Assembly (NCBI GenBank): GCA_017506865.1
Contig: JAFCMP010000068.1
Coordinates: 620,001 to 684,000 of the forward strand
DNA length: 64,000 nt
Source of the DNA: Tribonema minus
Taxonomy: Eukaryota; Sar; Xanthophyceae; Tribonematales; Tribonemataceae
Direction: 5' to 3'
The number at the start of each line of letters is the position of its first letter. Position 1 is the first letter of the stretch. Positions 1 through 48,000 of the stretch are shown piece after piece. The position numbers were made by a program, and so were the translations under genes. The notes beneath the pieces are model-generated. The model saw only the letters and a program-made list of their open reading frames with translations, searched no databases and was not told the origin of the DNA.

Positions 1-116
1 ACAGACATGGCAGGGCGTATATGCATACACAGGGGTTTTTTTACTCTGAAAAAAATTGCAAACATTTTCAGACCCCCCTGAAACTTCGATGAATGGGTAC
101 ACAGAGGAAAAAATGA

Positions 117-1256: not shown

Positions 1257-1326
1257 GGGCCCGTAGTATAGTGGCAGAACAGTTCCTTCGCAAGGAACAG
1301 GCCCGAGTTCGATTCTCGGTGGGTCC
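1257..1326 (+). tRNA. tRNA-Ala(CGC)
   Basis: Second, sequence-identical copy of the tRNA-Ala(CGC) at 117-186, in the opposite orientation. It has the same G3-U70 pair, the same anticodon loop TTCGCAA and the same T arm. A TTTT run at 1332-1335 is a plausible pol III terminator. The flanks of the two copies are not similar, so the detectable duplication is confined to the tRNA itself. Confidence 0.95.
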
Positions 1327-15506: not shown

Positions 15507-18500
15507 TTACATGCTCTTCATGCTGGCAATGGCGTCGTTGGCAACCTTGGCCATGGCCTTGTCAGTCGCCTTGGGGATGTACTGCAGGGGGGTGCGAGCA
15601 ACAAAGGTGGGGGGGGGGGGGGGGAGTGAGTGCATGCGTTACATCAATGCATCGCGCAAACAGCCTGTAGGTTTGAGCTGACAACTCCTGTTGGTTGCAA
15701 AAATGACGCAGGTGGTGCTCTCAACATCACAGCCGTGAGGTAATCACCTCAGGCGCATGTGTTGATGAATCACAGGCAAGCTAGTGATTTGCATATGATG
15801 CCAATTCCCGCACTGAAGTGAAAGCACTACTGCTCTGAGCACTCCTTTTGACGGCAGCCACTTGACGGATGGCTGGGGACGGTCACAAGTGGCAATGGAT
15901 TTTCAAATTCCGGATCTTCCTTTGTCTTTTGAGCAGTGGTGGCACATACACTGCCGCAATCAGCCCGAATGCAAACTCGTCTCCAAACTCGTCTCGTGAC
16001 AAGGACTTCAGGACTCCCTCAGTGACTCCCTCAATGACTCGCAATCACACTCACGTGGTAATTGCCGCCCGCTGCGGCCGCAATCTGCTTGGCGAGGCCC
16101 GCCAACAACAAAACGTCCTTGTAACACGGACTTGACGACTCACTCACTCACTCAATGACTCACTCAACGACTCTACGCACTTATGTGGTACTTGCCGCCC
16201 GCCGCGGCCGCAATCTCCTTGGCAAGGCCCGTCGACATCAACCTGTCCTTGTGACAAGGACTTGAGTACCCACTCACTCACTCACGCACTCAACGACTCT
16301 CGCACTCACGTGGTACTTGCCGCCCGCCGCGGCCGCAATCTCCTTGGCGAGGCCCGTGGACACAAACTTGTTCTCCGTGTCGAGGACGACGAGGTTGAAG
16401 CCCTTGAGCGCGCGCAGGCCCTTGGCCGTGTTGAGCACCTCCTCCTTCAGCTCGTCGCGCGTGGGCTTCGGGTCGTCCGGCGACGCGCTGCCGTTGGAGA
16501 CGGAGAGCGGGACGTTCGCGCGCCCGTCGCTGACCATCACCACGATCACCTGTTTGTGGGGGTTGGGGTGGGGGTGGTGGGGGGTGGGCGAGTACAGGGG
16601 GGCAGTGCACTAGGTACCATGACCGCCGGACAGTGTTCGTGTGTGAAAATGTGTGAGTGTTTGGGGGGGGGGGGGGGGGGGCTGCTGGGCAAGCACAGGG
16701 GGGTAGTCCGGGGCCCTGAAGTTGATGGAAAACTGTCCAATGGCCGAAGAGAACACACATGCGCTCCTCTTGCAGTCTCAGCAGCAGCAGCGCTCTTGCC
16801 CACGTCCCCGCTCTTGCACTCGTTGAGCCCTGTGCGCACGGCCATGCTGATGTTACACTAAAATGCTTCTATGTTGATGTTTGAAAACACATTGAGTGCA
16901 TGATAGCGCTCCTGCGAGACGCTCTCAGCAGCAGCAGCAGCAGCAGCAGCGCTCACCTTGCCCACGTCTCCACTCTTCTGCTCATCAAGCCCTGTGTCTA
17001 CGGCCATGTTGGTGAAGTATATACTTGCGTTGGATATGCATCGAGTTCACAGATAGCGCTGCTGTGCGACGCAGTCTGAGCAGCAGCAGCGCTCACCTTG
17101 CCCACGTCCCCGCTCTTCTGCACGCTGAGCCCCGTGTCTACGGCCATGTTGATGTTATACTACTATAATGCTAGAGCTCTGCGATTTCTTTATTCGTGTC
17201 CAAAATGCTTCGTTAAGACCGCATTGAGTTCACAAATAGCGCCCCTGAGCGACACAGTCCAAGCAGCAGCGCTCACCTTGCCCACGTCCCCGCTCTTCTG
17301 CTCGTTGAGCCCCGTGCGCACGGCCATGTTGATGGCGTGCGCGAGCGGCGAGCCGCCGCCGCACGGCATGGTCTCCAGCCGGCTCTTGGCCATGGCGATG
17401 GACTTGGTGGGCGGCAGCAGGACCTCTGCGCGCTCCCCCTGGGCGTACAGGCGCGAGCACGAGATAGAAGTTGCGAATAAGAGAGAGCCGCATGCTAGAA
17501 TCGCACACGGAGGGCGCATGCACTAGCATTTGCAATGGGCGGTGGGGCGCAACAGAGAGGGGATCTGGCCTCCGCCGGTGCAAACAGCGTCCATGGCAGT
17601 GGTGAGCAAGGGCGCGCGAAGCGCATCCGTAAGGGTTGGGGGGCTACCCCACATGAACATATACCTGGAAGGAGATGAGCATTTGTCAGATTGCGCACGG
17701 CATGAATGTGTCTGCATGCGAGGGGAAGGGAGCGGGGGGCAACTACGCCGCACATACATGCAGTACGCAACAGGTACAGGCGCGCACCTGGAAGGGAATG
17801 AGGCAGATCTTGTCGCGGCTCTGGTACGCCTCCTGCAGCAGCGACATGGCGGCGCCCTTGGCGGCGTTCATGCGGTTCAGCGCCATGGACCCGCTCGCGT
17901 CGACGCAGAAGATGATGAGCGACCCCGCCTTGCGCGCCATGCGCTTGGTGCGCACGTCGCCCGTCTCAATGAACACCTTGCGCTTCATCTGGCGCTCGTC
18001 GCCGCTCGCGAGCGCGCGCTCGCGCCGCGGGCGCTGGTACGGCGCCGCCGCGCGCATCGTCGCGTCCACCGCCAGCCGCATGACCTGCGCGTGAAGTACG
18101 GGGGCGAGCAGGGGGGGGCGGGGGGGGGATGAGGAGTGGCGCTCGCTCGTTGCGCTGAGGCGTGCCACAATGCTTGCGGGCGGCGCGAATGTCAATGCGA
18201 GAGCCTCGCGCGCATTGTCACGTCCACCGCCAGTCGCATCACCTGCGCGCTAAGGACGGGGGGGAGGGGATGAGGGGTTATGGTTGCGCGTTTGCGCCGA
18301 GGCGTGCCGCAGCAGGCAACCACAGGCTCTGTCCTTCAATCAAGGGCGCGCACGCTCGCGCCTCTACGTCACAGTTGCCCTCACTTGACACATGGCGCCA
18401 CTCGCGCACCACTGCTGCGGGTGGGTACTGCATCGCCGCAGCGTACCAACTGCAAAGCATAGCATCGGTTTGACCTTGACCGCCACTGCTGCCTCTGCCC

Positions 18501-21500
18501 GCGCAGTACAACAACCATACGCTCAAGGGCATCGGCGCCGAAGCAGCAGAGAAAGACACACAGGACAGCGCCCAACGTCCCCCCCATACGCAGCAGCAGC
18601 GCTCACCTTGCCGCGCGGCAGCATGGGCTTGATGTAGCGCCCGCGCTCCTGGCTGAAGATGAGGCCGCGGCCGCCCGACTTGCCGCCGCCGCTCTTGCCG
18701 CTGAAGTCCAGCAGCTCGGGGTCGAGGGGGGTGGAGTCGATGCCAAACATGAACTCCTGCGGCACCGAGGGGGCCTCGTCCTCATCGGGCTGGTCCTCCG
18801 GCTCGGGGGGCTCCTGGTCTTCCTTGTCCTCCTGTTCCTGATGGGGGCGGGGAGGGGGGGGGGAGGGGGGGGGGCAGAGGGGTTGGTGATGGTCAGGGTA
18901 ATGCATCATCACACGATGTGCCACGATGTGCCATGCTCTGTAGGATAGTTGTTGTTCGTGTTGACAGATGCTGAGGCTTGAGACACGCGTGAGCTTGCGG
19001 GCCTCCTTGTTGTTTGCAGCTGTGACGCAGGTGCATCGCTGCTCAGCGATGGATGCGACGTCCTAGGCGCAGTGCATGCTACCTCCAAATGCAGACTCAA
19101 GTATGTTGGGGCACCAACATTGGGCGGCTCCTGCTTCCAACTGCCCCCCCCCCATCATTGAGTAGAGGCAGCAGCAAAACTATAACCATGTTCTTCACAC
19201 TCATTCCAAGTGCTTTCGTTTGTGATTGCACATACACAAGAGCATCCCAAGCATTTGATGGACTCTTTGACGTTTTTGTGTAATCTGTCTTCGCCCTGAC
19301 CCTAGCCCTGATGTGTGCATGTGTGCGCCATCTAGGGTTGAAGTTACACTCCGTCTTTTCTGTCTCACCTCAGCATCCTCGTCCTGAGCATCCTCCATCT
19401 CAGGCTCCTGATTGTCGGGGTTGTTCTGCGGCTGAGGAAAACAGCAGTCGCGAGCGTGCAGTGGCAAACAGTTGAAGAGTTGGCAACGACTTGAAGTTTC
19501 ACAGAGGTCTACTGCAGGCTGCGTGGAGACTGTCGTATTGGTGACACTGCCAGCAGTCTGTGCTCAACAAGTGCAACCTCAACAAGCAAACTGCGCAAGC
19601 GTAAAATCAGTATTCTACAGCAGGTGACATGTTGACCCTAGTACATTTGGCTGCCAAACGAGCAACAGAACAGCGAGGTGCGCAACAATGTGGCCTAGGT
19701 TGCCTGTTTCGACGACCTCATGCAGACAACAACATAGATGCGGCAAACAAGAAAATGAGAGGGATGAAACCAAAGCACTGTGAACAGCCCCTTACAACTT
19801 CATCACTCATCAGCACACTGGTACTCCCGCAACTCCAGGCTGCAGCTACGAATCGGCTCAAGGGCTAGACTGCGCCGTGGTGCTCATGACAGCAGCAGCA
19901 CACTACACACAGACCCTGCGCCCGCGAAGGCATGCTGCAGCAATGCAGCAATGCACATTGTCATACATACATACGAAGTACGCTTTGACCGTTGCAGCTG
20001 TGATTCTTCACCGATTTCATACTTGACGGCACGTACTTGACGTGTGCGCTGCGATTCATACATTTGAAAACGAATCAAAAGACCGTAGAGCTCTAGGTGA
20101 CACCGGATGGTTGGCCGCAAGTGCCTTCCACCAATAACCGTGGTCGCCGCTGCTGCAGCAATTGGCCACGAGTCAAACAGTACCACCGTATCCATATATT
20201 CCATGGTATGATGCAAGTGCATGTATACATACCTGTGGCGGGGGAGGGGGCGGCGGGGGGGGCGCCATCATCTCCTCCTCCATCTGCGACGGCAGCGTGC
20301 GAGGGGCGACGCTACGATAGTTACAGATACAGACAGCAGCGTTGGTGGCGCAGCTGACGCGCAGTTGTTGGAGACGCACGGCAAGCGCTCAGCGGCGGGC
20401 AAAACCAAAGCGCCATCGACCATCAACTTCAACTGTCCATCCACTACCTCAACTGCTGCTCCACAACCTCAACGCTTCAGTCTGGACATGCGTTGCTTCA
20501 CGCTGAGGCCAGGCAGCAGAGTGGCGCGCAGGTGCTGGCTGGGGCAATGGACAAATGCGCGCCGACTGCACGCAATGAGAGGGAACCGTGCGGTGGAGGA
20601 GCACGCGTGTTGCCGGCATGGTATGTATACAGCGCTTGCACATACGTACCTGCTGGAAGAACGTCCCACGCGGCGCGATCGCCAGCTTCACTGCCAGCCT
20701 GCAAACGCGCAAATTGAGCAGGCGTGCGTGATGAGTATTCTCGCGGTGGATTGGCCCTCTGAGTCTTGCGGCAATGCAATGGTGAATCGCCCAAATGCAT
20801 TCGCTTATATGCGGTGTCTATGGTAGCACTTTTCTGTTGATGGTGTGGCAATTGCAGCTGGCAGTTACACTGGCAAAGGGCAGAGCTTTTGGCCCAGCAA
20901 TCATAAAGCTCTCCCAAGGACCAGAGTGACGCCATCACCTCTAAATAATTGCCTGCACTCAAACACCGTTGGTTTGTGCAATGAGCATACCTCACTTGAG
21001 ATGGTGATTTCACGACAGTGACATTTGATCACCAGAAGCCCGCAGCCCAGCTACCATTGTGATGAGCATTCATGCCTGCCTTCAGGCACGACTAATAAAT
21101 CGCCTTCAATGTACCTTATGGCAATCAGCGGAAGCCTTTGCGCAGCATGCACTGCCACAGGGCAATCACTAGCAGTCACAGTGCCTGCATCACAGGTCAA
21201 TGATAAATATGGCAAGGTCCTAGCACACATTAAAGACACCTATGCGGGTCCGCCTGCTTGGCTGTTTGTCGTAGCAGACACAATGGCGCCGTTACGGTGC
21301 AGAATGTTGTCCTATGTTTGGACCATGCCATCTTGCCCGCAGGCACACGGCGGGGTGGTGACAGCACTCACCTCACCCTAACCCCAACCCTAAGGTGCAC
21401 ACTGCAGCAGCGCAATGCTGCACAGGCCACCATAATTCAAAAAGCTGGTTGATGGAAGTGCACGTGCTGACAGTCAGTCCAGGTGCCAAGTAAATCAAGT

Positions 21501-24500
21501 GTACCTTGTGATGCACCGCAAGTAAAGTCTGAACATGCTGAATTAAGCAACTTCAACCACAGGTACCACGCTTTGCTTTACGTGATCTACTGTCTTGAGG
21601 TTGTTGGACGGCATCTGACCATCGCACAGATGCTGCACAGGTCAATCAAAGTGGATTTCATCAATGCTTGCTTTAGAACAGACGATTGATGTCAGGCTTG
21701 CTACCAGAGGCTGCAAGTACCCTTGTGAGAAAGATGTCCCAGTGCTAATTTAATTGACTATTACTCCTTTGAAATGACATGTCGAAAACAGAGTACTAGC
21801 ACCGTCACTTCAGGCATGGTGCTCCGCACCCAATACCTTCAGTATACACCTGACCTCTCCACATGTACACACTGATGTGCATACATGCAGACACAAGCAC
21901 AGACACGATCAAACAAAAACCACCGCTCCCGCGCTTACTTGAGGTCGTTGGAAGTTGCGCGGCGGTCCTCCAGCAGCGCGACGCTGGCGCGCGCCACCCT
22001 CTCTAATAGAGTCTCTATACATACTCATGTGCATACATGAGACACATGAGACACACACACACACATATACACCATCGAACAACAACCAATGCACCCACTC
22101 ACTTGAGGTCGTTGGAAGTCACGCAGCGGTCCTCCAGCGCGGCGCTGGCGCGCGCCACCCCCTCTCTATACATATGTGCATACATGTAGCAAAAGAACAT
22201 ACTTTGAAGTACACAATCGAACAACAACCACCGCTCCCGCGCTCACTTGAGGTCATTGGAAGTCACGCGGCGGTCCTCCAGCGCGGCGCTGGCGCGCGCC
22301 ACCTCCGCCGCAAAGATCTCCGCCCTGTGCCCCTGGCACCCCGCGCGCGACGCCTCCTCGCACAGGTACTTGAGCTGGTCGCGCGACAGCTTCACCTCCT
22401 CCTGAGAGGGGGGGGGGGAGGGGGGGCACAGGCAGCACGGCGGCGATGGCAGCGTCAGCGCGCTGCGCGCGTGCGCAGTGCTCCTGCAGTGCTCAGCGAC
22501 GACCGGCAGTCAATTCACGAGTCGATCGCGCGGGTCCACAGGCCTCTGGTGTAGGTGCTGGAGCAGCAAAAACATCATCGGCCGTCGTCAGCGCGTTTCA
22601 GCACTTGCGCAGCGGTCAACAGCCTGTGCCTGCAGGATTGCGATTCGCGCAGCTCAGGTCTGCCCCTACCGAAGGCAAGCTGCACGCCATGGCGGCGGCA
22701 CCAGACTGCGGCCCGAGCGCTGCCCGCGTCACTGTACTGCCCCGGTCAGACGCGACGCAGCTGCGGCAGCGACCGCGCGGCAGCTCACGTTGCGTCCAGG
22801 CGCGCCTGGCTTGAGGTGATGTCCATGTACATGATGTATGCGGTTCCAGTATCAACGGCCATCGATGAGTTGATGCTGCAAGCGGAATCAGAGCTCGCCC
22901 CGCACATGCGCTGATACATATCGTGTCTCGTGGGCATCTTTTTGAAGCGCGAACAGCGCATCAGCATCCGACTCAGGTCGATTGAACGCGCGCGCATGCC
23001 GCTGCAGTGCCGGTGCCTTGTCTACCTGCTCTAAGAAACTGCCACTGAGAGGGCATTGGCTGCAGTAACACCGAGGTTGCGCCGGTCATTGCCGGTGGGC
23101 TTGGTGCACATCTGCAAGTCAGTTTGACTTCAACTTGAAGTGTTGACAGTCACACACTTTCAACAGCAATTGCGCCTCCCTCACCTTCAGGTACTGTCGC
23201 GCAAAGATGATGCGCGTCTTGACGTTGTCCTCCTGCTCCTCAAGCGCCTTGAGCGTCTCCGGCGAGATGCTGGCCCAGTCCAGCACGCCGTTGACGGCCT
23301 CCAGGCGCTGCCCCATGTCCAGCGGCGACGCGTCAGCGCTCAGGCTGCACTCGCGAGTCGCTCGCGAGTCGGGAGTCACGAGTCGGGCAGTCGCGTCAGG
23401 GCAATGATCCACAGAAGATGAGCATGATGGGAGGCAGAATTTGGTGACGAGCCACAGGAGCAGTGGCATGGGAGGCAGTCAGTCTGTCACAGCGGGAGCA
23501 TGCATGCGTGGCGCCAACGCAGGCAGCCGCACGCATCAGCCAATTTCATCAGGTCGACTTCAATGAGCCGTACAGGGGGTTGCGCTGCTGCCAGGTGTGC
23601 AGCACGCGCCCTCGAGAACCAACATATGTTGAGACAAGCAGATGAGGGTAGGCACAAGCTCAAGCCGCAGTCATGATGAGCGTTGTGCCAGAAGATGGCG
23701 GGGTAAAGACGACGCTGTCATGCGGGTCATCATTCTTGTCCAGACCACATAAATCTTCAATTTACGATGCTCTCGCATGGCGATCTGCCATGCGCTCGAT
23801 TGAATGCACACGTCGAGGGTCGATTGAGCGCATTCAGCAGGATCAACCAGGATCAGCGGTCACTGTGACGCATTCTGAGAATTGATGTGGTAGTAGGGTA
23901 AATCAAATCCAGAGGGTGTTGCTTTGTGCCTGCCTCGCGCCTACCTGTCGGCGATGCGGGCACGCAGGCAACTGCTCTTCCGGATGAGGTTGGCTGTCAC
24001 TTCAACACAAGAGTTGAAAGAGCCTACCTGACGGCAATTGGCCAGCCTCCTCCAAGTTCAAGATTGGGAGTTGAATTCGACACTACCACCAACATAGTAG
24101 CTTGCATGACGTCAATGTGATCGACCAGGCGGTCGGGCGGTTCAGCCTTCTCCAGGTGAATACTGGGTCTCACTAAGCCTACTTGAAGATTGCAACTTCG
24201 CTTTTGGCTTCTTGCATTGCTTTACCATGTACTTGGCGAAAAGAGGTATCGACACAGCATTCGTTCGTGGCCACCTGACGGCAATGCGGTCGAGCAGGTA
24301 GCTGCGCAGGTCGGCCTCTTCCGAGTTGAAGTTAAGATACTCCAACACCTCACGACAAAGTAGCCATCTAATTGACTGAGAATTCCCTTCAAAACTTGAA
24401 CTACAAAAAGCACCCAACTGACGGCGTGCGGTCGAGCAGGTGGTCACGCAGGTCGGCCTCCTCTGAGGTGACGGTGAGATACGTACTTCAACATCACAAC

Positions 24501-27500
24501 TAAGGTAGCAACCTGACACTGAGAAGTTCACGTGAGAACTTGAACTACGAATAGCACCTGACGGCGATGCGGTCGAGCAGGTGGTCGCGCAGGTTGGCCG
24601 TCTCAGAGTTGAAGTTCAGGTAATTACTTCAACATCTCAACAACAAAAAACCCACTTAACTGACTAAGAACGCACTTCAGAACTTTAACTAGAAGTACAA
24701 GTAAACTAGTCAACACCTGACGGCGATGCGGTCGAGCAGGTGGTCGCGCAGGTCAGCCTCCTCCGTGTTCAGGTGACATGCTTACTGCAATACACAGTGG
24801 CCGCTTCAAAACTTCAACTACAAGTAGCCCACCTGACGGCGATGCGGTCGAGCAGGTGGTCGCGCAGGTCGGCCTCCTCCGGGTTGAAGGTGGCGATGAG
24901 CAGCGGGCGGCAGGGGAAGCGCACGCTCATGCCCTCGCGCTGCACGTTGACCCAGCCGTCGCTTACGACGCCCAGCAGGATGTTGGCCAGCTCCGTGTCC
25001 AGCAGATTGATGTCGTCGACGTACAGGATGCCTGCGGAGGGGGCAGGGGGGGGGCGTGTGTGAGGGGGCACGCACGATCGGGGTACATTACTTGTTTGAG
25101 CAAGTTCGTAACCTGCAGCACCGATTGGTTGGGTAAGGTGCTGGCGGCGTGCGAGCGCGCAGGCGGGCCCCGTGAGGACAACTGTGCTGCGGCCAAGTCT
25201 TGCAATTCAAATAGCAGAAGGGTTGAGCAGCAGAACAGCGTTTTCAGTGACCAATGACGGCGGGCTGTCGGCGCGCGAGTCGCGCTGGTCCGCGCAAGTA
25301 CACGCGTGCACACACGCACACATCAACAAGAGTACACATCATGTCTCGCCTTTTGTAGGCAAGGCGACGGGGAGGGATGGTGCAAGTTGTGCTGGTCACA
25401 CCGTCCGTCAGGCAGGAACCTTGAGCTATGAGTGATGTGACTGGTTGGCACAATGTAAAGTGTGTCAAGTATGACTCCAGCAGTCCCTGCTGCCACATGC
25501 ACACACCCCTGTAAATCAGCATTGAACTTGAAGTTCAGCATTTGAGGATCTTAGGGTCGCCGCCAACAGCGCAATGAGGTTCGCTGAATGGTTTGACCAT
25601 GACGTCCTATGCACACATTCAGTACATAGCAGCACGCTGAGCACTGCTGCTCATCGCTGCAACACCTGGTCCGCTGTACTTTTTATTAATTCTCGCTCAG
25701 GGCGCTGTACTTCTGCAAAAGGCTGCCAGCAATGCGCTTGTAGCGCCGCGTTGCGGCTACCCAAGTGAGTGGAGCAAAGTGAAGTGAGGAGCAGTGCCCT
25801 GATGAGGCAGTCATGGTTCGATGTGAAGTGGTGGATTCCGCATTGCGCACATGACCCCCCCACGTATCACCGCCTATGCAGACACAAAGGCTTCACATCT
25901 AAAAATGTTCAGGTGTTGTACATGTTGGTTCAAGCCAGTACGCACTTTTGCATGTCCTGGCGCAGACTGAGTGGCGCAGAGGTTATTGCTATTGCTGCCA
26001 CTACTGCCCGCGTCTGCATCATTGGTGACGCGTGCTGTATGCCAAAACGTCTGATCAGCACGATGGCTGCGCCACATATGCGCTGACGACGTCATTCAAT
26101 GACAGCGAGCCACAGCATCAACAGCCCGCCTCCCTCCCCCTTCCCCCCCTCCCCTTCCACGAGTGCCACAATAGACAAAGACTGGTATGACCGGAAACAA
26201 ATGCCTCAGTGCATGACCTGCAAATGCCACGCCCCTGCCACCAACGGTGGCAGGGGCGTGGCCTAGAGATGCACGCAGCACACATCGCAGCGAGCGCCGG
26301 CAACAACGCCGCCACGACGCTGACGCTTCGCCTGTGCCATGAGGATACTCCACCCGTTACAGCAGTTACAGCATTTACACAGGCTCACCGCGATGTGCCT
26401 TGGCCAGGAGCCCGGGCATGAACACCGTCTTCCCCATCCGCACCGACTCCTCCACGTCGACGGAGCCCAGCAGGCGGTCCTCCATCACGTTCAGCGGCAC
26501 CTGCGTGGGCGGGAGGTGGGTATGTGTAGGCGGCGGCGGCGCGCACGTTACGAGCAGCGCGATTCGGACAGCGGTGCTCACGCTGCAGACATGCGTCTTG
26601 CGCTGTGGGTGATGCCGAGGGAACTCTAGCTTGGTACCGCGTCGCCGCACACGGCGAATGCGTGCGGCAGCGGATGATAGCGCGTGTCGCAGGGGTTCCA
26701 CTACTCGAGCGCTCGCGCTTTGTTCCTCTGTTGATGGGGTTATAGATAGAACGCTTACGCGTGCTGCATTGGCATGCCTGTTACTGGCCGACAAGATAGT
26801 CGGCCTGAGCCCTTTCGCAGAGACGACAAAAACTTGCAGCAACATGCCGTGTTTCACGCACTTGAGTTCGCTGTGCCTGCAGACCTAATGCCCTAGCATA
26901 GCATGTGCCAATGCATCCACTGAGCAGTTCCAACTATGTGCCAAGTGTTGCTTCTTCAAGTACCACAGACAACACATCATTGCAGTGCAGAGCACAGATC
27001 CAACTCTGCTGGCGGTGGTGCCTGTCACTGTACCTGAACGAAGGGCGCCTCTACAATTTCCCTTTCCAACTCCCCCAGCTCCTTGCCCTCAGCCGCCAGC
27101 ATTTCAGCCGTGAAGCTGTCCACCTGGTCCGGAATCTCAGGGTCCAGATTATAGTTGCTGCCCTTGACCCTCTCGATCGGGGGCAGGAGTCTGTGCAAGG
27201 CTCGTGCCAGCACCGACTTGGCAGTTCCGCGCCGGCCGCTGATGACTACGCCGCCCATCGCGGGGTTCACTGCTGCCAGCAGCAGGGCTGTCTTGATGTT
27301 GTCGTTGCCGATGATCATAGACATTGGGAACGGCCGCCCCACGTCCTTGATATTGGCCATGAGAGCCCGTGGGCGAGGCTCCTCCGATGCCTGCAGCAAC
27401 GCCTCATACTCCATGGCTGCCTTGACTCTGTCATCCACACCAGAGCTCATAGACAATCTGCTGCTGCTTCTCCGTGCCCCCATGGTGGCAAGCTTAGGCT

Positions 27501-29781: not shown

Positions 29782-31416
29782 TCAGGTCAGCATCTCAAAG
29801 TCGCCAGGGCGAAGCCGCACAGACAAAGGCAGCTCGCCCTCCGTCGTCAGCACGTGCCTGGCACAGCGAGAAGAGAGCAGCACGAAAGCAGTCAGCGTCG
29901 ATGCCAGCACATTGTCATAGAAACGCGAGCGCACTGTACCACACGCGAACATGTGCGCATGACACGCTAGCAAATCGCTGACAGATGAACACCAGGCTTG
30001 GCCTCCATGAACAGTGGTGCTGATGAAGCTCACAAAGCAGAAGTGTGCACCCTCACCGGTGCCCTTACCACTACTTTAAGCAGTGGCATATGCAAATTGC
30101 GCTGTCACGAGCACGCTCAAACCCCCATTCACACTTCTACGTCAAACCATAGATGAATGGCGACACACGCAAACGCCAACTGCATCCCATCCATGGCGCC
30201 TGCCAAGCCAGCGGCGCTGCGCACCGCCATGATGCGCACCGCCATGATCTGCCCATGATGCGGCAGCGCTCACCAGCCGTATCCCTTGGCGCCCTTCGCA
30301 TCCGGCACGGACTTGACGACCGCCGTGAGCCCCGCCACGTGCGGGCAGATGCGCGCCACCCACGTCGTCTCCAGTATCTTCACGCGGTCCCCGACGTGCA
30401 CGCCGCCTGACGCCAGCGCGTCCGCCTTCCGCTTGGGCGAGCCTCCGCCCCCGCCCCCCGCCCCCCCCGCGCCGCCGCCGCGCCCGCCGCTGCCGCCGAC
30501 GTCCGCGCCGTGCGCGCTGCTGCCGGTCGGAGTCGCGCCGGGCGCGCCACCGCCACCGCTCTTGCCGTCGCCGTCCGCGGGCTTGAGGTGGCGGCTGCCG
30601 CGCGGCGGCTGCGTGCGTGTCCCCTCCACACGCGGTTTCAGAGCACCAGGACTGTCGCCGCTGCCGCGCGAACCGCCGGTCGCGTCCGCGGCGGCGCGCG
30701 GCGGCCGCCCTGGGCGCCGCTTCTGCTCGCCGCTGCCGCCGCCGTCGCTGCCGCCGGCAGCAGTGCCGCCAGGTGCCGCCACTGCTGCAGCCTCCGTCGG
30801 CGCGTCCGTCGGAGTGGGCAGTGCTGGCGGGGTGTCAGAGCTGCGCAATGCACGGGACATGCTGGGTTTACTGGCACCGGCAGTTGGAGTGGTGGGGGTG
30901 CCATCAACTTCGTCTGTGCCACCGCCGCTGCCACCGCCGCTGCCGCCGCCGCCGCTGCCGCCGCCGCCGCTGCCGCCGCCGCCGCTGCCGCCTGCGGTGC
31001 CATCAACTTTGTCTGTGCCGCCGCCGCCGTCGCCGCTGCCACCGCCGCCGCCGCTGCCACCGGTGCCATCAACTTTGCCTGTGCCGCCGCCGCCGCCGTC
31101 GCCGCTGCCGCCGCCGCCGCTGCCGCCGCCGGTGCCATCAACATTGTCTGTGCCACCGCCGCCATCGCCGCTGCCGCCCCCGCCGCTGCCGTCGCCGCCG
31201 CCGCTGCCACCGCTGTCATCAGCACCAGCACCAGCACCACCTCCACCATCAGCACCACTGGCCCCGCTGCTGCTGCTGCCGCTGCTGCCGGCGCCTCCAC
31301 CGCTGCCATCAACGCCATTGATGGCACCGCCAGTGTCATCGACAGCACCGCCGCTGCCGTCGCCGCCACCGCCGCTGCCGCTGCCACCGCCATCGCCGCC
31401 GCCGCCGCCGCCGCCG

Positions 31417-31453
<37 letters not shown>

Positions 31454-31633
31454 CAGCGTCATCGGCCGCCTGAGAGCGCCGCACATACGGGCGGATGCGC
31501 GCGCAGCTGAAATCATACACAATGTACTCGACAGGCTCCCTGGGCTCGATGGGCACATCGTCCGTGTCAGTGACGTCGCCGCTCGCGGAGCTGGCTGCCG
31601 CGCCGTGCGAGCGCCGCTGCGCGCTGTCTTGCG

Positions 31634-31664
<31 letters not shown>

Positions 31665-36071: not shown

Positions 36072-39000
36072 CTACGCTGAGACATGCTGCACTGGCGGCA
36101 CCGGCGGAAGCTCCTCCTTCGTCTCCGCCTCGCTGTGCGAGTGCCTCGAGCTGATGCTGTTGTCCAGTGACTCTTCCGCCACCTCTTTGTGCGGCGGAAG
36201 CGGAGGGCTCGCCTGTAGTACAGTTGCAACATGGGGGGGAGGAGGGAGGTGGGGTCAGCACTGCTCAGTACAGCGAGGCAGAGTCAATACAAGGCTTGAC
36301 GCGCACTGCGCCTTTCCCTCTGCTGCACGCTTGTGCAGCTGCGCCTTTGAGCGTGCCTGCAGTGCACCTCGAAGTTTTGTGTTACGGTCTTCACGGGCGA
36401 ATGAGGGTACAGGGGGTTGGCACACATCAGCAAGACCTTCACGGCACACACTGCGCACACGCGGCGGCGTCGCCCTTGATTCTCAGCAGCGCCCACCGGA
36501 CTCACGTCGCAACCGACATGCGCGACGCACTGCTAGCACAGCATGCGCGCCGCCAGCGCACGCGGCGCCACTCACGCATCTGCTCGCCGCCTGCTCTGCG
36601 GACGTGCGCGGCGTCCTGTCGAACAACGGCTTCTCGTGTCATCGCCCGCAGGACTCACACTGCAACCCGCATGCGCGACGCACGTCTACCCATACCGCAG
36701 CACCGCATGCGCGCGCCGCCACTCACGTATCTGCTCGCCGCCTGCTTGGCGCCGCTACTACTACCGTACCACCCGCAGCACAGCATGCGCGCCGCCAGCG
36801 CACGCTTGCCACTCACGTATCTGCTCGCCGCCTGCTCGGCGGACATGCGTGGCGTCCTGTCAAACGACGGCTTCTTGTGTCACCGCTCGCAGGACTCACG
36901 CCGCAACCCGCATGCGCGACACACTTCTACCATACAACAGCACAGCATGCGCGCCGCCAGCGCAGCGCGCGGCGCCACTCACGTATCTGCTCGCGGCCTG
37001 CTCGGCGGACGTGCGCGGCGTCCTGGCAAAGGACGGCATCTTGTGTCATCGCCCGCAGGACTCACGCCGCAACCCGCATGTGCGACGCACTTCTGCCATG
37101 CGGAAGCACCGCATGCGCGCCGCCGTCACTCACGTATCTGCTCGCCGCCTGCTCGGCGGACGTGCGCGGCGTCCTGTCGAAGGAGGGCTTCTTGTGGACG
37201 CCCCGGGGCGCGACCGCGGGGGACCCCAGCACGACTTCCTCGCGCATCTCCAGGTGGCTCATCTCCGTCTCCACGAACGTCTTGGAGCCCGCCTGCATGA
37301 GCTCCACGAACTGATCGTACGTGACGCCGCGCGCGCCGGGCTCGAGGTTCGCCTCCTTCATCATCTGCTGGACGATCTCGGGCTGCGCGGGGGGGCAGGG
37401 GGGGGGGGGGAAGGGGGGGGGGTGTTTGCGTTTGAGCGATGATGCGCTGACGGGAGGCTACGGTCGATTCACGCTGGTATGCTGTGGAAGTAGAAGAGTC
37501 ACGTGCGCTGGCTCGCTCGCCGCACTCATGCTGAGTGCAAAGGTAGCAGGGGCGGGAAAACCGGAGGTGCACAGACCCTGTGTCGAACACAAAGCATGAC
37601 AACCTGGACTGACAGAGCCAGCTCTGAGTCAGCATCGCAGAGTCATCAAGTACCAAGATCTAGATCACCTAGCCACTGACCCTTGGTCAGGGTGCTGCAA
37701 TGTGCACGACAGACCGTGATGAATGCGTCGAAATACCGTCAGCACAAGGCTGCATGCCTATCGAGCTGATGCAAGCAAGTGCGGTCACAACGGGGCCGCA
37801 CATGCACGTGACTACATGAGATGAGATGTGCCGTCATCTGTCTGCCTGGCGATGAGGGCAATTTGCAGAACATTCACCAGCACTTCAGGGCCTCAACAGG
37901 GGTCCAGGGGGGCCCGACTTTCTCTAGCCCTAGCTAAGGTCAAGCCCTAGCCCCCATTCACCTTGATCAAGTCAAGCCCTAGCCATCGTTGCCGCAAGTA
38001 GTATGTACAATCGCGGAGGTGACTTCATCACGCAACGAAGGTACCTGCCCCCACAAGCTGCCGTTCACAACGCCGACGCTGATGCTGCACGAGCTCATGC
38101 TGCAGGCGCGGAGGTGTTGTTTACAAGCGAAATTGCTGGGGCCAAACATCCTATCGTTCTTAGGGGGGCACAGCAGGGTGCTCAAGACGCTACGGTGCGG
38201 GGCGCGCACAGTCAGGCTTTGTATCCGAGCCTGCTCAAAGTGCAAGCACTTGAAGCGGCAGAGCCGGGGTCTTTCTTGGTTGAATAACGCGGCTGCGGGC
38301 ACAGCGAGCGCGGTCGAGGTACATGGCGGTAACGACATCATCGCAGGCTGCGGTGTCGATGTGGCACGGCTCAGCCGCCGTCCCCTGTACTCACCTTGTA
38401 CTCGCGGCCCAGCAGCGACTTGAGGTCGGCGTAGACGATGAAACCGCTGCCATCGACGTCCATGTGCTGAGAGCGCGCAGCGGCGGACAACACCAGGGTG
38501 GCGCAGGCACGTGCTGCGGTTAGCGGTTGCCATGAATTTGGTGGGGCTGCGACTATGCGTCTGACCGGACCAGTTAGCGGTTGCCATGAATTTGGTGGGG
38601 TTGCAACTATGCGTCTGACCGGACCATTTGGCAACTGACAATACCCCTACAAGGAGGCATGTGCGCGTTTCTTAGCAGGGAAGCGCATGAGGCTTGTGCC
38701 GCTTCAAGAGGGGGGGCGCGCTTGACCAAGCTGAGGCGTGTCGCGTGCTGCATCGGCCGCGCGCATCAAAGTGCGCTGAGAGAGCTACCGCCGTGCGGTG
38801 CGCTGGTTGCGGCGTCATCGAGCACGCGCATCGCCGCTGACCACTGCCACTGCGTAGGTGCAGCTCGAATGCATGCTGTGCCTGAGCATACCGACGCGTC
38901 TTGAAGGGCCCGCGCAACATGACGCCCGGTGCAGGTGTGGACACCCGGTTGAAGGTGGCGTCGGGGTGCCAAACCCTACGTGTCGACGACGCTAAACCTA

Positions 39001-42000
39001 ATTCAACTCCTACGCCGACGATGACCCTGTGGGATGCGCTTTGACGGTCTGGCGGCGCCGTGCAGTCCTATAGTTCTGCTCGCAAAGCCATCGCCACTTC
39101 CCCTGGTTTGCCGATACATTTAAACATGCATGCATACATACATGGAGAACGACAGACACGAGCAAGCCTGCCCACGCGACCGCACCTGAAACGCGTCTCG
39201 GAGTCGTGTTTCGCTGAGCCATGCTTCGTCCATCGCGCCGAGCGCTGCTGCCAGAAACTCCAGATACCTGCCAAGCGTGGTTGATTTGAGTGCCAGGGTA
39301 CGGAGAGGTTGAAGTTACCCACTCGCATGGCGTGAATGACTTCAAACTCTTAAACCGGTTCAGCCGGTTGAAGCGCTCAAACTGGTTCAGCCGTTTGAAG
39401 GGCGTTGGTCTGTCGACTGTTGCCAGAGGTGCCTCAAGGCTGCCCAGCGCACCTGTGACGCACCGGCTGAACAGCGCCGAAGATCACACACTGCAGACAG
39501 CATGCATTACATTGGACTATGCACCATGATGCTGCAGTTGCGCATGTGCGGTCAATGCGTCCTGAAACTGGCACTTTCGAAGTTCACATGCAATACGAAC
39601 CTCGCTCACCAGCGCTACACACACAGCGCGAGCGTCCGGGCACACCACAGCAAATGAAGCTTGTTTGAAATGCACGATCGCGTCTGCGTCTTGCGGGCAA
39701 TATACCCGATCTTTCCTAACTCAACGTCTGTAGACTCGAAAGCGCGTCTACCTCCGCGGACCCGTGCCGCATCACACCCTACCCACAGTTTCAAGTACTT
39801 CGAAGTACCTGATTTTCCCGGACTGGTCGACGTCCATCGACTCAAACAGTGCGTCGACCTCCGCGGGCTGCACGCCCTGCCCCTCCAGCGCCGCGCGCAG
39901 CTCGTCCTTGTTGATGGCGCCAGTGTCGTCCGCGTCAAACTTGGCAAACTCGTCGCGTATGTGGCTCATTTGCTGCGCCGCAGGGGGGGGGGGGGGGGGC
40001 CGGAAGCGGGGGGGAAGGGGGGGGGGGCACAGCGGCACGGTAAATTTGACTATTAAGCACTGGGGCTGCTGTGACTGACTTCAGACGCTGTGAGCAAACG
40101 GCGAGTCCGCGGCGGGATGATGCGGACAGTGGGTGGGTGAGTGCGACATGCTCCGGGGGGGGGGGGGGGGAACGGCTCGGTGAGTGCTGCGGCTGATGAC
40201 GCGCTGTCAGAGCACTGAGGCAGGTGACATTGGACTGGACAAGCTGTGAGCGACCAGCGACGCCGCGACGGGATGATGCGGATGGGGCACGCGGGTGTGT
40301 GCACGCTGCAAGATGCGTTCACTCTTCGGCAGCGAGCGATGCGTCTTCCGCAAGAGTGCTAGCGGAGACTGCCGCTGCGTCTGCGACCGCAGCGCACACT
40401 GCGCCTGGCGCATGAAGGTATTCGCCGCGCGAGCGCAGGCTCATGGCCGGCGCCGGTGCCGCTGCCGGCAGTGGAGAAGAGCAGGCAGCAGCAGGCGCGC
40501 ATGCCAAAGTTGAGTGTGGGGCCAGTGGCACGGGGCTGTTCAGAACCCTAACCCTAACCCTAACCCTAACTCACAGTAGCCGCCATAACCCTACCACTGG
40601 CGGCAGCCGCCAGTGTAACAGGAACGCTCGTGGCCACTGATACCTCTGATCCTGGTGGCGTGGGCCGGGTGCGACTCACGACATGTGCCGCGCCCTTCGT
40701 TGAATCGAATCACCGACACGAGTGGCCCGAGCTGCGAGGGTCGCGTACCCTGCGCTGCCGCCTGGCAGCACCCACTTAAAACATCATCAATCAGTGACTG
40801 CTAACGATGCCGATGGCCCTGGAACAAAGCTTGTTGGAGCCAGACGGAATACACACATGCATGCTTGCGGCCATACGCTCGCAAAGCTGAGCACGCGCCA
40901 TACCAGCGCCAACTGCAGGTTTGGCTTGAGGTTAGGGTTTGGGATTAGGGCAGCAAAGCATTGGCGGCTCGAAGAAACGGCGAAGGCGCAGCGTCATGCG
41001 CCACTGGCAGCAGGTCCCTGCCAGCGGTTCACATGACACTCGTGCCGCCATACACCGGTGGCGCCTCAGCATCAATTCACGCCGTGCGTACAAGAGAGTG
41101 CAGTGCACGCCTCACACTTCACCGCTGACGCTGAGTGTGTGCCGCAACAGTACCAGCATTAATGCGCGCGCAGAGCGCACCGCACCTGCGGCCGCAGATG
41201 GTACTATACTTCCGACCCTACTTTCTTTTAACTGCAATGTACAAGACAGCATGCAACGTGGGTTGCCCTCCCATACGACTGCAGTACGCCTCCCAACGCA
41301 CGTGATTTTTGGAGGACAACAGGTACATGTATACACATGTAAGGTATCATGCATCGCACCTGTGGTCGCAAGTGGTACGCCAGAACCATGAGCGCGCGCC
41401 GCTTGAACGGCCCGTACGTGCGGTACTCGCGTATGCTGTTGAGCGTCTTGGCCAGCATGCTGCTGTCGCGCCCGGGTGACCCCACCTTGCTGCCGCTGCA
41501 GTGCTTGCGCAGCCACGGGCTGGCCAGCGCTTCCTGCGCAGCGGCGGGGAGAGTCGCAGCGTGCATGAGTCGAGTTGAAGTTGTGAATATCACCTTGTTT
41601 CTCTTACGTACTTGGCATACTAGTATATAAAACCACTGACACGAATATAGCAGTGGCGGGCCTGCGCCTCCTGCGCGGCGACGGGGGAGAGTCACGGGCG
41701 TCTATGAGTCGGGTTGAAGTTGTGCGTGCTTTTGGCTATCGTTGCTTAAAGTTTGTTTGCATTCACGTTGTACACTTCTATAAGAACTAACATGTATGAA
41801 GCGTGCGCTGGCCAGCGCCTCCTGCGCGGCAACGGGGGAGAGTCAACGGCGTCTATAAGTCGGATTGCAGTTGTGCATGATATCACCTCGCTATCATTAC
41901 CTACTTGAAGTTGCTTCGCCTGCTTGTATAGATACAGCCACTGACACAAACGAAAGTAGCGGTGGCCTCCTGCACGGCGGCGGGGACAGACGTGACGGCT

Positions 42001-45000
42001 GCGCGAGGGCTTGGGGTTAGGGCTAACCCTAACCCTAGGAGGCATGCAATATCGGCTACAATCATCTGCTTGTACTTCAACTGCTTAACATAAAGCAGCT
42101 GGTTGGCGCCTCATGCGCGAAGGCCAAGAGAGCCCTGGACTCTGCCAGCGGCCCGCAAGCCCCAATTTCCCACATAGCACAAACAATCTTCTCGCCAATT
42201 CAGACAGGTACTTCCCCCGCGCATCACACACCGGCACAGGCTGTCAAACTTCAAGACATCGCGTCACCGCGCAAAGTGACGCACCTGCGCCGTCATCCGC
42301 ATGGTCGGATCAAATTTCAGCAGCTTGTACACAAACTCCTTGGCCTCGCTGGAGACCGCCATGCCGCGCGGCCACGAGTACGTCACCGTTTGAAGTTTGA
42401 CCATGGTGTCGGCCTCCGTCTCGCACTCGAACGCGGGCTCCCCCGCGATGAGCTGGAAGGCCATGCAGCCGATGCTCCACACGTCGGCCTGCTCTGTGTA
42501 CTCGCCCCTCAGCACCTGACGAGGGGGGGGGGCCGGGGGGGGGGGGGGGGGGGGGGATGTAGGGTAAGGGTAGGGCAAGGGGTGAATAAGCATGGGTCAC
42601 TTGGTGCACCCCCAAGATCAGCTCAACTGCTATGCAGCCGCTGCTCCACACGTCGGCCTGCTCCGTGTACTCGCCGCTCAGCACCTGACGGGGGGGAGGG
42701 AGGGGGGGGGGGGCAGTTTCAATTGCACCTGCTGTTACGATCTCGTGGACCTGCAAGTCATTGATGATTGCTGAGCTTGCAACAACAACATTGGGTGTGC
42801 ATGCGGAATGACGTCAGGGCACATCGGAGGGGGGGCGGGGGTTAAGGGGTTAGGGGTAGGGTTACCGAAAGGTGAAATGTAGCATCGGCCGCCCGGCGCA
42901 CCCCTGTGATCAGAAAAGGCGCTCCATGCGTCAACTTCGTAAGGGTCAGGACAGCATCGGCTGTTGGCGCACCGCTGTGACCAGCTGGAAAGCTACGCAC
43001 CAGCACTCTATACGTCAACTGCACGCTATCAGACCCCTCGGCGCGCGCCGGGCCAGAGGCTTGTCAGCGGCGCAGCGCAGGAAAGGCGCGATATCACGGC
43101 GTGCGATGAGCACTGCTGTGGTCGTCACGGGCTGCGCTGAGAGCTGCCGCCCTGCACTGCGCACGTTGCCGCTGCCGCCCTGGCGCGCAATATTGCAGCG
43201 GGTAGGTGCCCTGACATGCTCTTGTTCAAGACGAGGAGTGGCGTGATGTCCGCAAGAGGCAACGGAGAGCGTGTGCGCGTGCAAACGCAGTTGGCGCCGG
43301 CGCCTGCTTAGGGTTAAGGGCGTGCGCCGAACCTGCGCGCTCACCACACTTCCTGAAGGCCATGAGAGATTCGCTTGTGCAGTGGCCGACATCCACGGCG
43401 TGCTGACAACATAAGTTCGATGTGTGAGGTCGGTGGTAGTGCACACGATTTGCCGCCGCTCGCACTCAGCTGCCTCGCGCGCAAGACCTGCGGGGGCACG
43501 CCTGACCGCAACCCTAGATGCTGACCCTAAACCCCATGGCGACGTGCCCTTATTTTTTGTTTTTTGGTTCGCGAGCTGTTCGAGACCAGCTCCAGATCAG
43601 TGGTTTAGGTGACGCAGCAATCCTGAGCTGGCACGCGCAGGTTTGCTGTTGATGATAATATCACTTCCTTCAGCTTCCTTCACCACGAGTGTGTGTGTGT
43701 CACCTTGTGGCTGCCTCCGTCTGCCTCTGCGCTATGCATCGGTGCGGTGTGGCGTGCTAGCTTGCACGCGTCCCTACCGCGGCATCGTGCGCGGCACGAG
43801 ATGCACCACCGCAAGCCTAACCCTAACCCTAACCCTAACCCTGCAAGCGTCTCGGGTACACGCATGCATACGCACGTCTGGGGCCATGGTGCAGAGTAGC
43901 ATTGCAGGCTGCCTCAGTTGCACGCGTATGGTGGCACTGTTTAACTCGCGGCCGACAGCTGCAGCAGCGGCGACCGCAGTTACTTGAGGAAGGCACTTGT
44001 GGCTTGTCACCTACGGTAGAGCTCTACGGACTTACGGTTTGCAAACATACATACCTCCGGGGCCATGGTGTACACGGTTCCGACGCGCTCGCGCATGTAC
44101 GCGCCGCGCGCAAACTTGCGGCTCATGCCAAAGTCGATGAGCTTGGGCTCGCCGTCGGCGCCGCGGCCCGGCGCCTCCCAGAGCACGTTCTCGAACTTGA
44201 GGTCGCGGTGGCACACGCCGTGGCGGTGGCAGTACACGATGGCGCGCAGGACCTTGCAGATGATGACCGCGGCCTGCGCCTCCGTGTACGGCTCGCGCCG
44301 CGTGAGGTCGCCGCCCTCGCACAGCTCCTGCGCGGGGTGGGAAGCGCAGCACAGCGCGCGCGTTAAGTCCTGTACACGGTCTGGGGTCAGTTTGCGGCGA
44401 CCGCCTGCTGACAACTTATTCAGCAGTGTACCCGACCAAGTGCAAGTGGTGCATGCAGTGAGCATGTAAGCGTGAGGTCGCCGTCCTCGCATAGCTCCTG
44501 CACGGAGTCAGCACAGCATGGCACACGTAATCGTTCAGTCCCAGAGGCTTCCCGTAGAATGAACGAGGATGCGGTCGCGGCGGCGCTTGCAGCAGTGCTA
44601 TTGATTCAGCGGGGCTTGTACGGCTTGCGCCGCGCAAGGTCGCCGCCAGCCCCTGCACGTACGCAGCGTTGCGCGAGAAGTTCAGCGGGGGTTGCTGTGA
44701 TGCGGATTGCAATGCGGGTCTGGCGACGGTCTGCTGGATGCTTGTTGTTCAGCAGTCCACAAGACTTGAGTATTGGTAGTGCGGTGCTATGATCTTATCG
44801 GTGTGATCGCATACGCAACTCCTGTACGGGTTCAGCGCGGCACGGCACGCGCGGCAGTCATCCACAGAGGCTTCCTGTGCGCATCAGGGTGCACTTTGCG
44901 GCGACCATCTGCTGAGAACCTGATCATCAGTTTACACGACTGAGTGCAAGTAGTGCATGCTTTGGACATGTGAGCGTGAGGTCGCCGCCCTCGGACAGCT

Positions 45001-48000
45001 CCTGCGGAGCGGAGCGCGACGCGTCACGCGCGGTGCTGTGACCAAGTTCTGCCAAGGGCGCAGCGTAGCACATGCGGCGATGCCATTCAGTTCAGGCCGT
45101 CCCCTGGAACGGAAGACAATGCGGCAATTGGCCAACTACTAGGGGCTTCCGCCTTCGAAACAGCTACCCTTTAAACCACAACATGTCCAAGTATGTGTCG
45201 GGTGAGTGGGGCTAGCACAGGCAAGAGCGGGGCAAGATTGAGCACCACCACCAGCGCTCAGCGGCGAGGACTGCGTGCAACAGCGCCATGCCGGTCGCTG
45301 GCAGCACGTGCACTGGACAGATGTTTCATATATATATATATATACATATATATATGTATATGTTTCATATATATATGTTTCATGTATATATGTTTCATAT
45401 ATATTATATACATATATATGTACTTCGAAGTATATATTTATATATATGAAAAACGAATCAAAAAGATCGTTGAGCTCTAGGTGACAAGGGATGGTTCGCC
45501 GCAAGTGCCTTCCACCAATGAATATACATATACGCATCCCGCACCACAAGCTGCTTGCCAGTCTTGGATTCTGCGCACACCCCGCAGATAATCTTTTTGC
45601 CATGGGCATGGCGTGGCACGCGGTCCAACAACAGGCGGCACTCCTGCCGCATACTACGTCCTCATGACATGGCACGCTCCGGGTCCCGGTCATCAGAGAC
45701 ATCATTGAGCATTGATTGTGCAAGTTGAGCATTCATCGTGCAACGGCACCCTCTTCTGACTGAGCCAACATAGCCCATGACGTCCTCGCCGCAGGCGTCA
45801 TATTTTCTGCCCACCAGACCCTCAAAGACTCCAGGGCTGAAGTTCAACATAAAGTTTGGCCCGCAGCGGGGGCGGGCATGCGCGCGCCGACGACGCCCCT
45901 TACCATGATGAGATGTATGCAGCCGATTGCGTTCTGTCAGAGTGAGCCAACCATTTGTCAGCACAATTCCTGGGGGACCCGTCAGCAGTAACTTCAACGC
46001 GGCGACGCTCCTCACCATGATGAGGTGTATGCAGCCGCCGGACTCGATGCGCTCGTACGCGCGCACGACGTTGGGGTGGTCCAGGCTGCGCAGAAGCTCA
46101 ATCTCGTTGCGCAGCATGTTGCGTATCTGCAGCGCGCGCGTGTATTGACGGCGCGTAACGGCGGAACAAGCGGCAACACAGTCAGTTTTGCAATGATGAG
46201 ACTAGGTGAAGTTGAGGGTGGGGCGTCACAGCTTGTGCGACGGGCGCCGTGACGCGGCTACGGAGCGACCAGCGGACCGTTCAACATCAGGCCGTGTACG
46301 CGTACTTGGACCGCACAAGCGACCGATGAGTGGGGGTGTCAGCATCGCAGCGGCCGTGACAGCGCCGCCGCGCCAACGACGGGGATGCACTTTTGCCATG
46401 GGGATGGCGGAAACCCTGAACGGCAGAAACGGTGTGCCCGTAGTGGTATCATCAGTGGCTTTCCATGCAGCACATAAAGGCGGTCATGAGCAGTACGAAT
46501 GCGCAGGGCAGAAGGGTGCATTCGAATGACAGCATGTCACTTGCGGGCGCGTCTGCTGGCAGCGCGGCGCACGACGTCAAGTGCAACGTTCACAAGGACA
46601 GTGCACACTGACAGGATGCACTTCAGGAATGCTGCGTTGTCAGGCACGATGAAAAACTGCATCCTGGGGGACGGGGGGGGGGGGCTGGTGGAAATCGATT
46701 GAGTACAGTACCTGCATCCATGCAGGGCAGTGCTCGGCGCCAGGAGGTATGCCTCAATCTAATTCCCTACTTGCACCAACTCTGAAGTACCATCGTACTT
46801 CTAATTTGGGACACTATTGAAGAATATCGTGACGTGTATACAACACTGAACACGATCCACGACTGTCGCCTGCGCCTCTGGCACTCGATACCTCGTACTG
46901 AACTGCTCAGCATTGCTGGTGTTGAACGCTGTCAGCTACCGAACTGCTGAGCATTTTTTGCTGCTGTTGAGCGCTGCTGTTGAGCGCAGTCGGCGCGCAG
47001 CCACCTCCGCTCAACACACACACCCAGCACACCACAACTAGGTAGGGAAACCCTCCCCTAACCCTAACCCTAACCCTAACCCTATCCCTAACCCTAGCAA
47101 GGGGCTCACCTTGACTTGCACCTTCTTGTCGGGGACAGACTGCATGTTGAAGGACTTGCAGGCGAACATCTCGCCGGTGGCCTTCTTCCTGACCGTCCTC
47201 ACGATGCAGCCCATGCCCGCAGAGCCCAGCTCCTCTTCCGTCACCTGGATCAGCAGCAGCAGGCGGAAACAAGCACGGTCACGTGGATTGCACTCGAAGT
47301 TGGAGCGCACACAGAGACCACACTTAATTTTAGGAGGGCAGCTGGAGGGCCCTCTTAACTTCACGCAAAGGTCGGTTGAACACGCGCGCGGCGATTGCGC
47401 AAGATCATCCCGCAACGGTGGCGTGCTGCCACCGCAGCGACCCCCCCCCCCCCCCCCCCCCGCGCGGTGCCGTAGCACAGCGCCGCGCCCGCTGGGATCA
47501 CAAGCGGTCGCCGCATGTTGCCGCGCTGCGCGCAGACGCTTGGCTGCATCGGTTCGCCAGCGCAATGAAAACTGGATCGCAATGGCATCGATGCTGAAGG
47601 CGCCGCTTCGTGCTGTCGCGCTGACGCTCGGAGTGTCAGCTGCCGAGCGCTGACATGCCCTCTGCGATGCAAAACGAATTGCTACTGTCGTTGACAGGTA
47701 TGGCGCTGCCCGTCGACATGGCAGCCAATTGTCGCATGTTTCCACGCTACGTGCGCCTCCGTAGCTGCACCGGTTTGCCACCGCAAGGACCCCGAATGGT
47801 ACTAGCTGGCGCTCGGCGCTGTCAGCTGCGGAGCGCTGACATGCCCTCTGCATCGGGCCATGCGCGGTAGTGTCGAGAGTGCCGGACGTTGAAGTGGGCG
47901 CCGGTCAAAAAGCGCAGCACAGCGCTGCGCTTTTGCGTCATGACACCATAAGGTCGCGCCTCCCATTGTGATGCGTGTACATACAATATGTCAAGTCACC

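Follow-up and report, generated by a model that had tools for sequence, protein, structure and literature searches.

Tandem duplications anchored at splice junctions probably lengthen existing introns in Tribonema minus

In a 64,000-nt stretch of the Tribonema minus genome (contig JAFCMP010000068.1, or C68, positions 620001 to 684000; here called the window), the introns of two genes carry degenerate tandem copies of their own splice boundaries. One gene encodes ChlD (magnesium chelatase subunit D), and the other encodes a kinase with EF-hand motifs and is similar to those for calcium-dependent protein kinases (CDPK-like). The copies, which we call echoes, lie on the intron side of the junction that they resemble. 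In the introns modeled in the window and elsewhere in the genome assembly (158.18 Mb in 554 contigs), nearly every array of long repeat units includes a splice site or extends to one, many more than uniform placement would predict. The observation made in the initial annotation of the window is confirmed and is more general than first noted, and we reinterpret it as neutral, junction-anchored duplication that lengthens existing introns. Judging from sequence comparison, we consider it about 60% probable that segments of ~150 nt straddling splice sites have been duplicated recurrently in tandem, preferentially at those sites, and have then decayed neutrally.

The ChlD gene (15507 to 27330, minus strand) was modeled over its coding part as 12 exons and 11 introns, using matches to TIGR02031, tblastn with four cyanobacterial ChlD proteins, the stop codon as read, and an intron table; its exons 6 and 7 are weak matches only. 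The kinase gene (37133 to 46171, minus strand), identified by tblastn and by Pfam matches to Pkinase and then EF-hand_7 in succession, was modeled in part (introns 1 to 6 and the donor of intron 7). Self-comparison revealed tandem repeats in both genes, with periods mostly of 130 to 185 nt. When the exact junctions were tested against approximate (two-base block) shuffles, 11 of 35 carried echoes: the donors of ChlD introns 3, 5, 10, and 11 and of kinase introns 1, 5, and 7 and the acceptors of ChlD intron 8 and of kinase introns 1, 2, and 3. The initial annotation had counted at least ten such junctions, and this number holds, with two of the 11 being weaker cases. It had also described one to seven copies per junction, each with ~35 to 90 nt of exon edge; as many as seven copies do occur elsewhere, but the window junctions have only one to six, and the exon portion of the window copies runs from 15 to 93 nt.

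All of the window arrays are on the minus strand. The donor array of ChlD intron 3 (23939 to 24891; true donor at 24832) has six copies and an edge z score of 27.7, with its most distant copy scoring just 20. Donor arrays in ChlD introns 5 (21861 to 22305; true donor at 22246; z = 32.0), 10 (16748 to 17333; true donor at 17276; z = 29.5), and 11 (15976 to 16386; true donor at 16309; z = 28.1) have two, three, and two copies, respectively, and the acceptor of ChlD intron 8 (18048 to 18310; z = 7.4) has one, at 18137 to 18266. Four copies follow the donor of kinase intron 7 (36513 to 37196; true donor at 37133; z = 22.0); since the downstream acceptor was not modeled, this array is not among the 62 counted below. 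Acceptor echoes precede the junctions of kinase intron 1 (44284 to 45051; three copies listed; z = 8.3) and intron 2 (42436 to 42713; one copy with 79 nt of exon; z = 22.0), and a weak donor echo with 22 nt of exon is present in kinase intron 1 (45887 to 46036; z = 5.5, or 5.0 in the 69-intron edge test described below). The two weaker junctions are the acceptor of kinase intron 3 (41517 to 41997), where two copies with 15 to 16 nt of exon each are listed and the exon-edge test by itself was not significant (z = 1.2), and the donor of kinase intron 5 (approximately 39700 to 39808), a probable echo seen by eye (z = 9.7) for which the copy-by-copy step returned no copy and the array pipeline no array.

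Further genes for intron modeling were picked by conserved family and not by repeats. In the genome, three loci match the ChlH profile, and two match that of the large carbamoyl-phosphate synthase (CPS) exon by exon, and repeated partial exon matches, which are echoes, were already visible in the CPS and chaperonin profile hits. The gene models omit 11 profile matches judged to be echoes, a match that belongs to a different gene (C134), and a match beyond the retrieved sequence (C51:31584). Modeling of the first set solved 71 introns, from 14 of 15 genes, with 10 exon pairs left unsolved and 23 skipped because of profile gaps; 56 introns passed a score of 10, and the 14 window introns brought the total to 70. 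All but one of these, 69 introns, measured 200 nt or more. For a second set, we chose seven HSP70 genes with many exon hits and used 47 of 80 matches; 34 introns were solved (6 pairs were unsolved), and 28 passed both cuts. Chaperonin genes CCT_C51, C235b, and C511 contribute no introns to the counts, and some modeled junctions may be misplaced by a few codons.

Edge tests on these sets indicated that echoes are not peculiar to ChlD and the kinase gene; the observation is genome-wide and extends past the window. Copies of an intron's own exon edge were found (z > 5) in 44 of 97 introns from 21 genes. Compared with dinucleotide-preserving shuffles, 38 of the 69 first-set introns exceeded this value at either edge (25 donor edges and 18 acceptor edges), as did 31 of 55 when the 14 window introns were removed. 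The HSP70 replication gave 6 of 28, indicating that echo frequency varies from gene to gene, and the two sets pooled without window introns gave 37 of 83. At a score of at least 26, matches were obtained with 36 of 138 true edges in the first set (24 donors and 12 acceptors) and with 6 of 56 in the HSP70 set; no reverse-complemented edge reached this score in either set (0 of 138 and 0 of 56). The same 138 edges, each compared with eight other introns, also gave none at this score (for the window genes, these other introns may include introns of the same gene). Shuffled controls, named in the initial annotation as a way to expose the echoes as chance matches, reproduced the matches in neither set. 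An inverted pair of HSP70 genes on C522 (L058 and L059) has short introns, and the 7 that were tested lacked echoes; a high expression level or a late duplication may play a role there.

A copy-by-copy search recovered 105 adjacent, same-strand echo copies with exon edge, splice site, and intron at 48 junctions. The nearest copy at each junction had, at the median, a period of 151.5 nt, an exon part of 58.5 nt, and an alignable intron part of 46 nt; unit size was mostly 90 to 230 nt (median, ~150 nt). In 19 of the 48 nearest echoes, the unit aligned with no more than 20 nt left unaccounted for. Copies within one array often have an identical breakpoint, which suggests a single founding duplication followed by growth in register. 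No breakpoint motif was seen by eye in the listed contexts, for which no formal test was made.

At E ≤ 1e-3, we found 62 long-unit arrays in 100 introns (77.2 kb). Fifty-two of these hold at least 15 nt of exon (28 at donors, 22 at acceptors, and 2 at both), and 61 touch a splice junction or come within 25 nt of one ("hug" it). Uniform placement, with intron length reduced by array growth, would yield 25.6 arrays with exon (P = 5e-14) and 33.8 touching or hugging (P = 2e-18), and on the latter comparison we rejected ordinary intronic minisatellites, whose placement would be independent of splice sites. With the threshold relaxed to E ≤ 1e-2 and kinase introns 4 to 6 left out, the other 97 introns hold 65 arrays, 63 of which touch or hug a junction. 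Young arrays show the same tendency: of the first set of 57, 16 arrays had identities of 88 or more, and 14 of these were strict junction arrays, compared with 7.0 expected (P = 8e-5). This placement is not an effect of detection, since the array pipeline, in its first version, recovered 98 of 120 interior duplications that had been planted with a matching age.

Short-period repeats served as an internal control for placement. A 54-nt unit present twice at 38519 to 38626 (96% alike), ~52 nt upstream of the acceptor of kinase intron 5, was missed by the self-BLAST pipeline; because Tandem Repeats Finder (TRF) reports it, we ran TRF on the same introns. At periods of 10 to 59 nt, 30 repeats were interior, 13 were near a junction, none crossed one, and 5 were exonic; many of these are only two short copies. 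Of 18 long-period TRF rows, 9 lay across a junction, 2 hugged one, and 7 were interior, and these 7 belong to arrays that extend to a junction.

The true exon sequence is maintained, and the copies decay as neutral noncoding DNA. Over the 105 copies, leaving out those without a known frame, exon-echo divergence was 0.112 at codon position 1, 0.095 at position 2, and 0.182 at position 3, with 0.193 on the intron side. This is the pattern expected of neutral copies of a constrained exon, because only one lineage evolves at positions 1 and 2 and both do so at position 3 and in the intron. The weakening of copies with distance that had been reported is real but modest: at 19 of 25 junctions, similarity was no higher in the farthest copy than in the nearest (permutation P = 0.0012). 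Echo identities span 0.65 to 0.98, and their formation was therefore spread over time. The splice dinucleotides are often intact: GT is retained in 52 of 62 donor echoes alignable at the site and AG in 32 of 35 acceptor echoes. However, an in-frame stop precedes 48 of the 52 GT-bearing donor echoes, and 23 of the 32 AG-bearing acceptor echoes bring in an in-frame stop, with 9 staying open; read in this way, use of an echo site would be harmful in most cases. We rejected tandem alternative exons as an explanation, given the short exon part, the stops before donor echoes, and the absence of coding constraint. Repeat-induced or directed mutation was also rejected, as nothing in the exon-to-echo spectrum looked unusual.

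Introns with arrays are longer, with a median of 793 nt, than those without (531 nt; P = 1e-4). Together with the retained GT and AG dinucleotides, this bears out the earlier proposal that introns grow longer, and acquire decoy sites, through recurrent tandem duplications that span splice sites. Saying that introns are built from echoes was too strong, however: arrays account for 23.7 of the 77.2 kb of intron sequence, although a few introns are nearly all array (e.g., CPS_C509 intron 8). Two ChlH paralogs, on C528 and C357 (L031 to L034), have exon blocks that are mostly 82 to 94% identical and introns that are largely unalignable; some arrays occur at the same junctions in both and others in one paralog only. 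In this one gene pair tested, intron positions (in profile coordinates) are common to the paralogs with and without arrays, and the arrays are therefore not the trace of intron birth by AGGT duplication. An apparent intron-birth signature in ChlH_C357 (model positions 1092 to 1201, overlapping the previous exon) was rejected as spurious read-through.

The arrays show tandem duplication, on the intron side, of segments of mostly 90 to 230 nt with a donor or an acceptor. To account for their placement, we propose that new duplications favor units that include the splice site, by at least ~10-fold and best near 30-fold, and that arrays afterwards grow in register. Duplications would be tolerated because, under exon definition, the truncated exon copies are not recognized as exons and transcripts using echo sites would mostly carry stops. 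As a speculation, such duplications might result from the fill-in and joining of breaks, or of nicks offset from one another, where transcription pauses or R-loops form over splice sites. We give even odds to the broader proposal that splice-site-coupled DNA duplication, probably via transcription or cotranscriptional splicing, repeatedly copies ~150 nt around donors and acceptors genome-wide and acts as a neutral engine of intron lengthening.

The size of the preference comes from simulations of intron evolution in which duplication was uniform, exon-damaging events were rejected, and free parameters were fitted by hand. The observed shares are 84% junction arrays and 98% touching or hugging, and the median remainder outside arrays is 395 nt. 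Adding a 10-fold splice-site preference gave 76% and 84%, a 40-fold preference gave 87% and 94%, and a 30-fold preference, at two longer run times, gave 87 to 90% and 93 to 96% with a remainder of 357 to 440 nt; the 30-fold bias yields about the observed junction share, remainder, and length. The fold preference is a hand-fitted quantity and not a measured rate, and it is silent on cause. Uniform placement, short ancestral introns, an exchange ratchet, and turnover were all simulated and were insufficient; uniform duplication failed to match placement and remainder at once.

Formally, uniform duplication could produce junction arrays if introns were very short (~150 nt) at onset, such that units had to include a splice site, with in-register growth later. 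Short runs from a 150-nt start without bias indeed gave 83 to 93% junction arrays and 93 to 100% touching or hugging, and in-register growth is visible as repeated breakpoints. However, these runs leave 60 to 76 nt outside arrays instead of the observed 395 nt, the shares drop to 40% and 49% when the uniform model reaches a remainder of ~340 nt, and young arrays are found in long introns; we consider this explanation unlikely. It is less plausible still that uniform duplications were sorted by survival, with interior arrays collapsing or being deleted and junction arrays being protected by the constrained exon. Such a ratchet predicts the similarity gradient and a fresher splice-proximal half, and the largely unalignable ChlH introns point to fast turnover, but simulations with exchange gave junction shares of 22 to 48% from 400- to 600-nt starts (70% from a 300-nt start), and those with deletion and insertion turnover gave 25 to 35%; at high exchange, only 1 array remained, too few to judge.

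That selection keeps echoes for splicing or regulation, as decoys, recursive splice sites, or enhancers, seems very unlikely to us. The retention of GT and AG would fit such a role, as would the lower divergence of the splice-proximal half of the exon copy (0.102 versus 0.153; P = 2.7e-4; 79 copies), although this comparison is biased because the far half sits at the alignment end, and end effects may contribute. In contrast, echo splice dinucleotides have changed no less than codon positions 1 and 2 (14 of 194 versus 408 of 3,949 positions; P = 0.18), the codon pattern fits exon constraint only, and for 48 of 52 echo donors, splicing there would mean reading through an in-frame stop. Mobile elements of the introner type or artifacts of assembly can scarcely be responsible. 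Unit lengths of 90 to 230 nt do resemble those of nucleosome-sized introners, but the units carry local exon sequence, and the ChlD intron 3 array, the one array tested, had no match in the genome apart from itself and the edge of its own exon (very common words were skipped). Assembly error is unlikely because the exon copies diverge by 2 to 35% and occur on more than 10 contigs.

Several results weigh against preferential duplication at splice sites or limit its scope. One array at E ≤ 1e-3, in kinase intron 4 (40055 to 40302, minus strand; unit, 155 to 158 nt), is interior and stops 83 nt before the acceptor, which counts against a strict rule; two further weak interior arrays appear at E ≤ 1e-2 (2 of 65 in the 97 introns), and nine arrays with less than 15 nt of exon merely hug a junction. 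In the HSP70 set, 21% of introns had echoes, although we had predicted 35% or more in advance. To judge from one missed repeat, self-BLAST fails to detect periods of around 55 nt and shorter, and the copy-by-copy search had no shuffle control of its own, such that its weakest copies may be chance matches. For 29 of the 48 nearest echoes, the alignment left over 20 nt of the unit uncovered, whether because of decay, deletion, or another cause, and some of the events may thus not have been plain tandem duplications. Finally, the 30-fold model makes ~1.0 array per intron compared with 0.62 observed, and the simulations have free parameters.

Related processes have been described. In a potato gene, a tandem duplication crossing an intron-exon boundary created a new intron (PMC4974935); the duplications here likewise cross such boundaries and carry splicing signals, but the potato case was a single event, and what we see in 44 of 97 introns is the extension of an existing intron, often by multiple copies. 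Tandem duplication of AGGT-containing exon sequence is a model for intron birth (PMC3443670, which names Hellsten 2011 in its references) and shares with our arrays a small tandem duplication of exon sequence with a splice-like site; in that model, both new sites come from exon, whereas our units straddle a junction that already existed. Small tandem duplications arise in human and mouse cells when breaks with 3' overhangs are filled in (PMC8355091), which is a possible route to a tandem copy but, unlike the arrays here, has no tie to splice sites in that report. Direct repeats of 4 to 30 bp around intron borders have been interpreted as insertion scars (PMC11782384); they share the location at exon-intron borders, but our units are ~150 nt and form one-sided arrays. 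Introners (PMC9860276) also change introns on a large scale within a genome, but they are mobile element families that insert into many genes, whereas the one array tested here had no dispersed copies. One Drosophila event is reminiscent of tandem duplication (PMC2809761), and the available part of a description of an intron-rich alga (PMC12730881) does not mention such arrays. Our literature search, with incomplete coverage of subscription papers, found no genome-wide account of serial junction arrays, which is weak evidence of absence.

Other features of the window were also recorded. Two tRNA-Ala genes (anticodon CGC) at 115 to 186 (minus strand) and 1257 to 1327 (plus strand) are inverted and ~1.1 kb apart. 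Interstitial telomere-like repeats of the TTAGGG type occur at 40544 to 40570, 43816 to 43842, and 47056 to 47096, the first two inside kinase-gene introns. A long GC-rich, low-complexity repeat region at 30297 to 32100 has large open frames on both strands. Outside the modeled genes, repeats with periods near 185 nt lie at 47620 to 47851 and 48263 to 48624; each copy of the latter has an acceptor-like end, and the repeat may be an echo of an unmodeled exon.

How and why introns lengthen is an old open question, and many accounts invoke mobile elements. A large share of the introns examined here records another route, and the exon-derived copies can be dated and counted. The ChlH paralog pair provides a natural test bed for intron turnover, and the arrays offer a similar opportunity to test exon definition in a long-intron lineage and to ask how near-perfect decoys are passed over by the spliceosome. 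Splice-site targeting is the surprising part of the finding. If it is true that duplications prefer splice sites, an RNA-processing landmark would also be a landmark for DNA mutation, linking transcription or splicing to a class of mutation.

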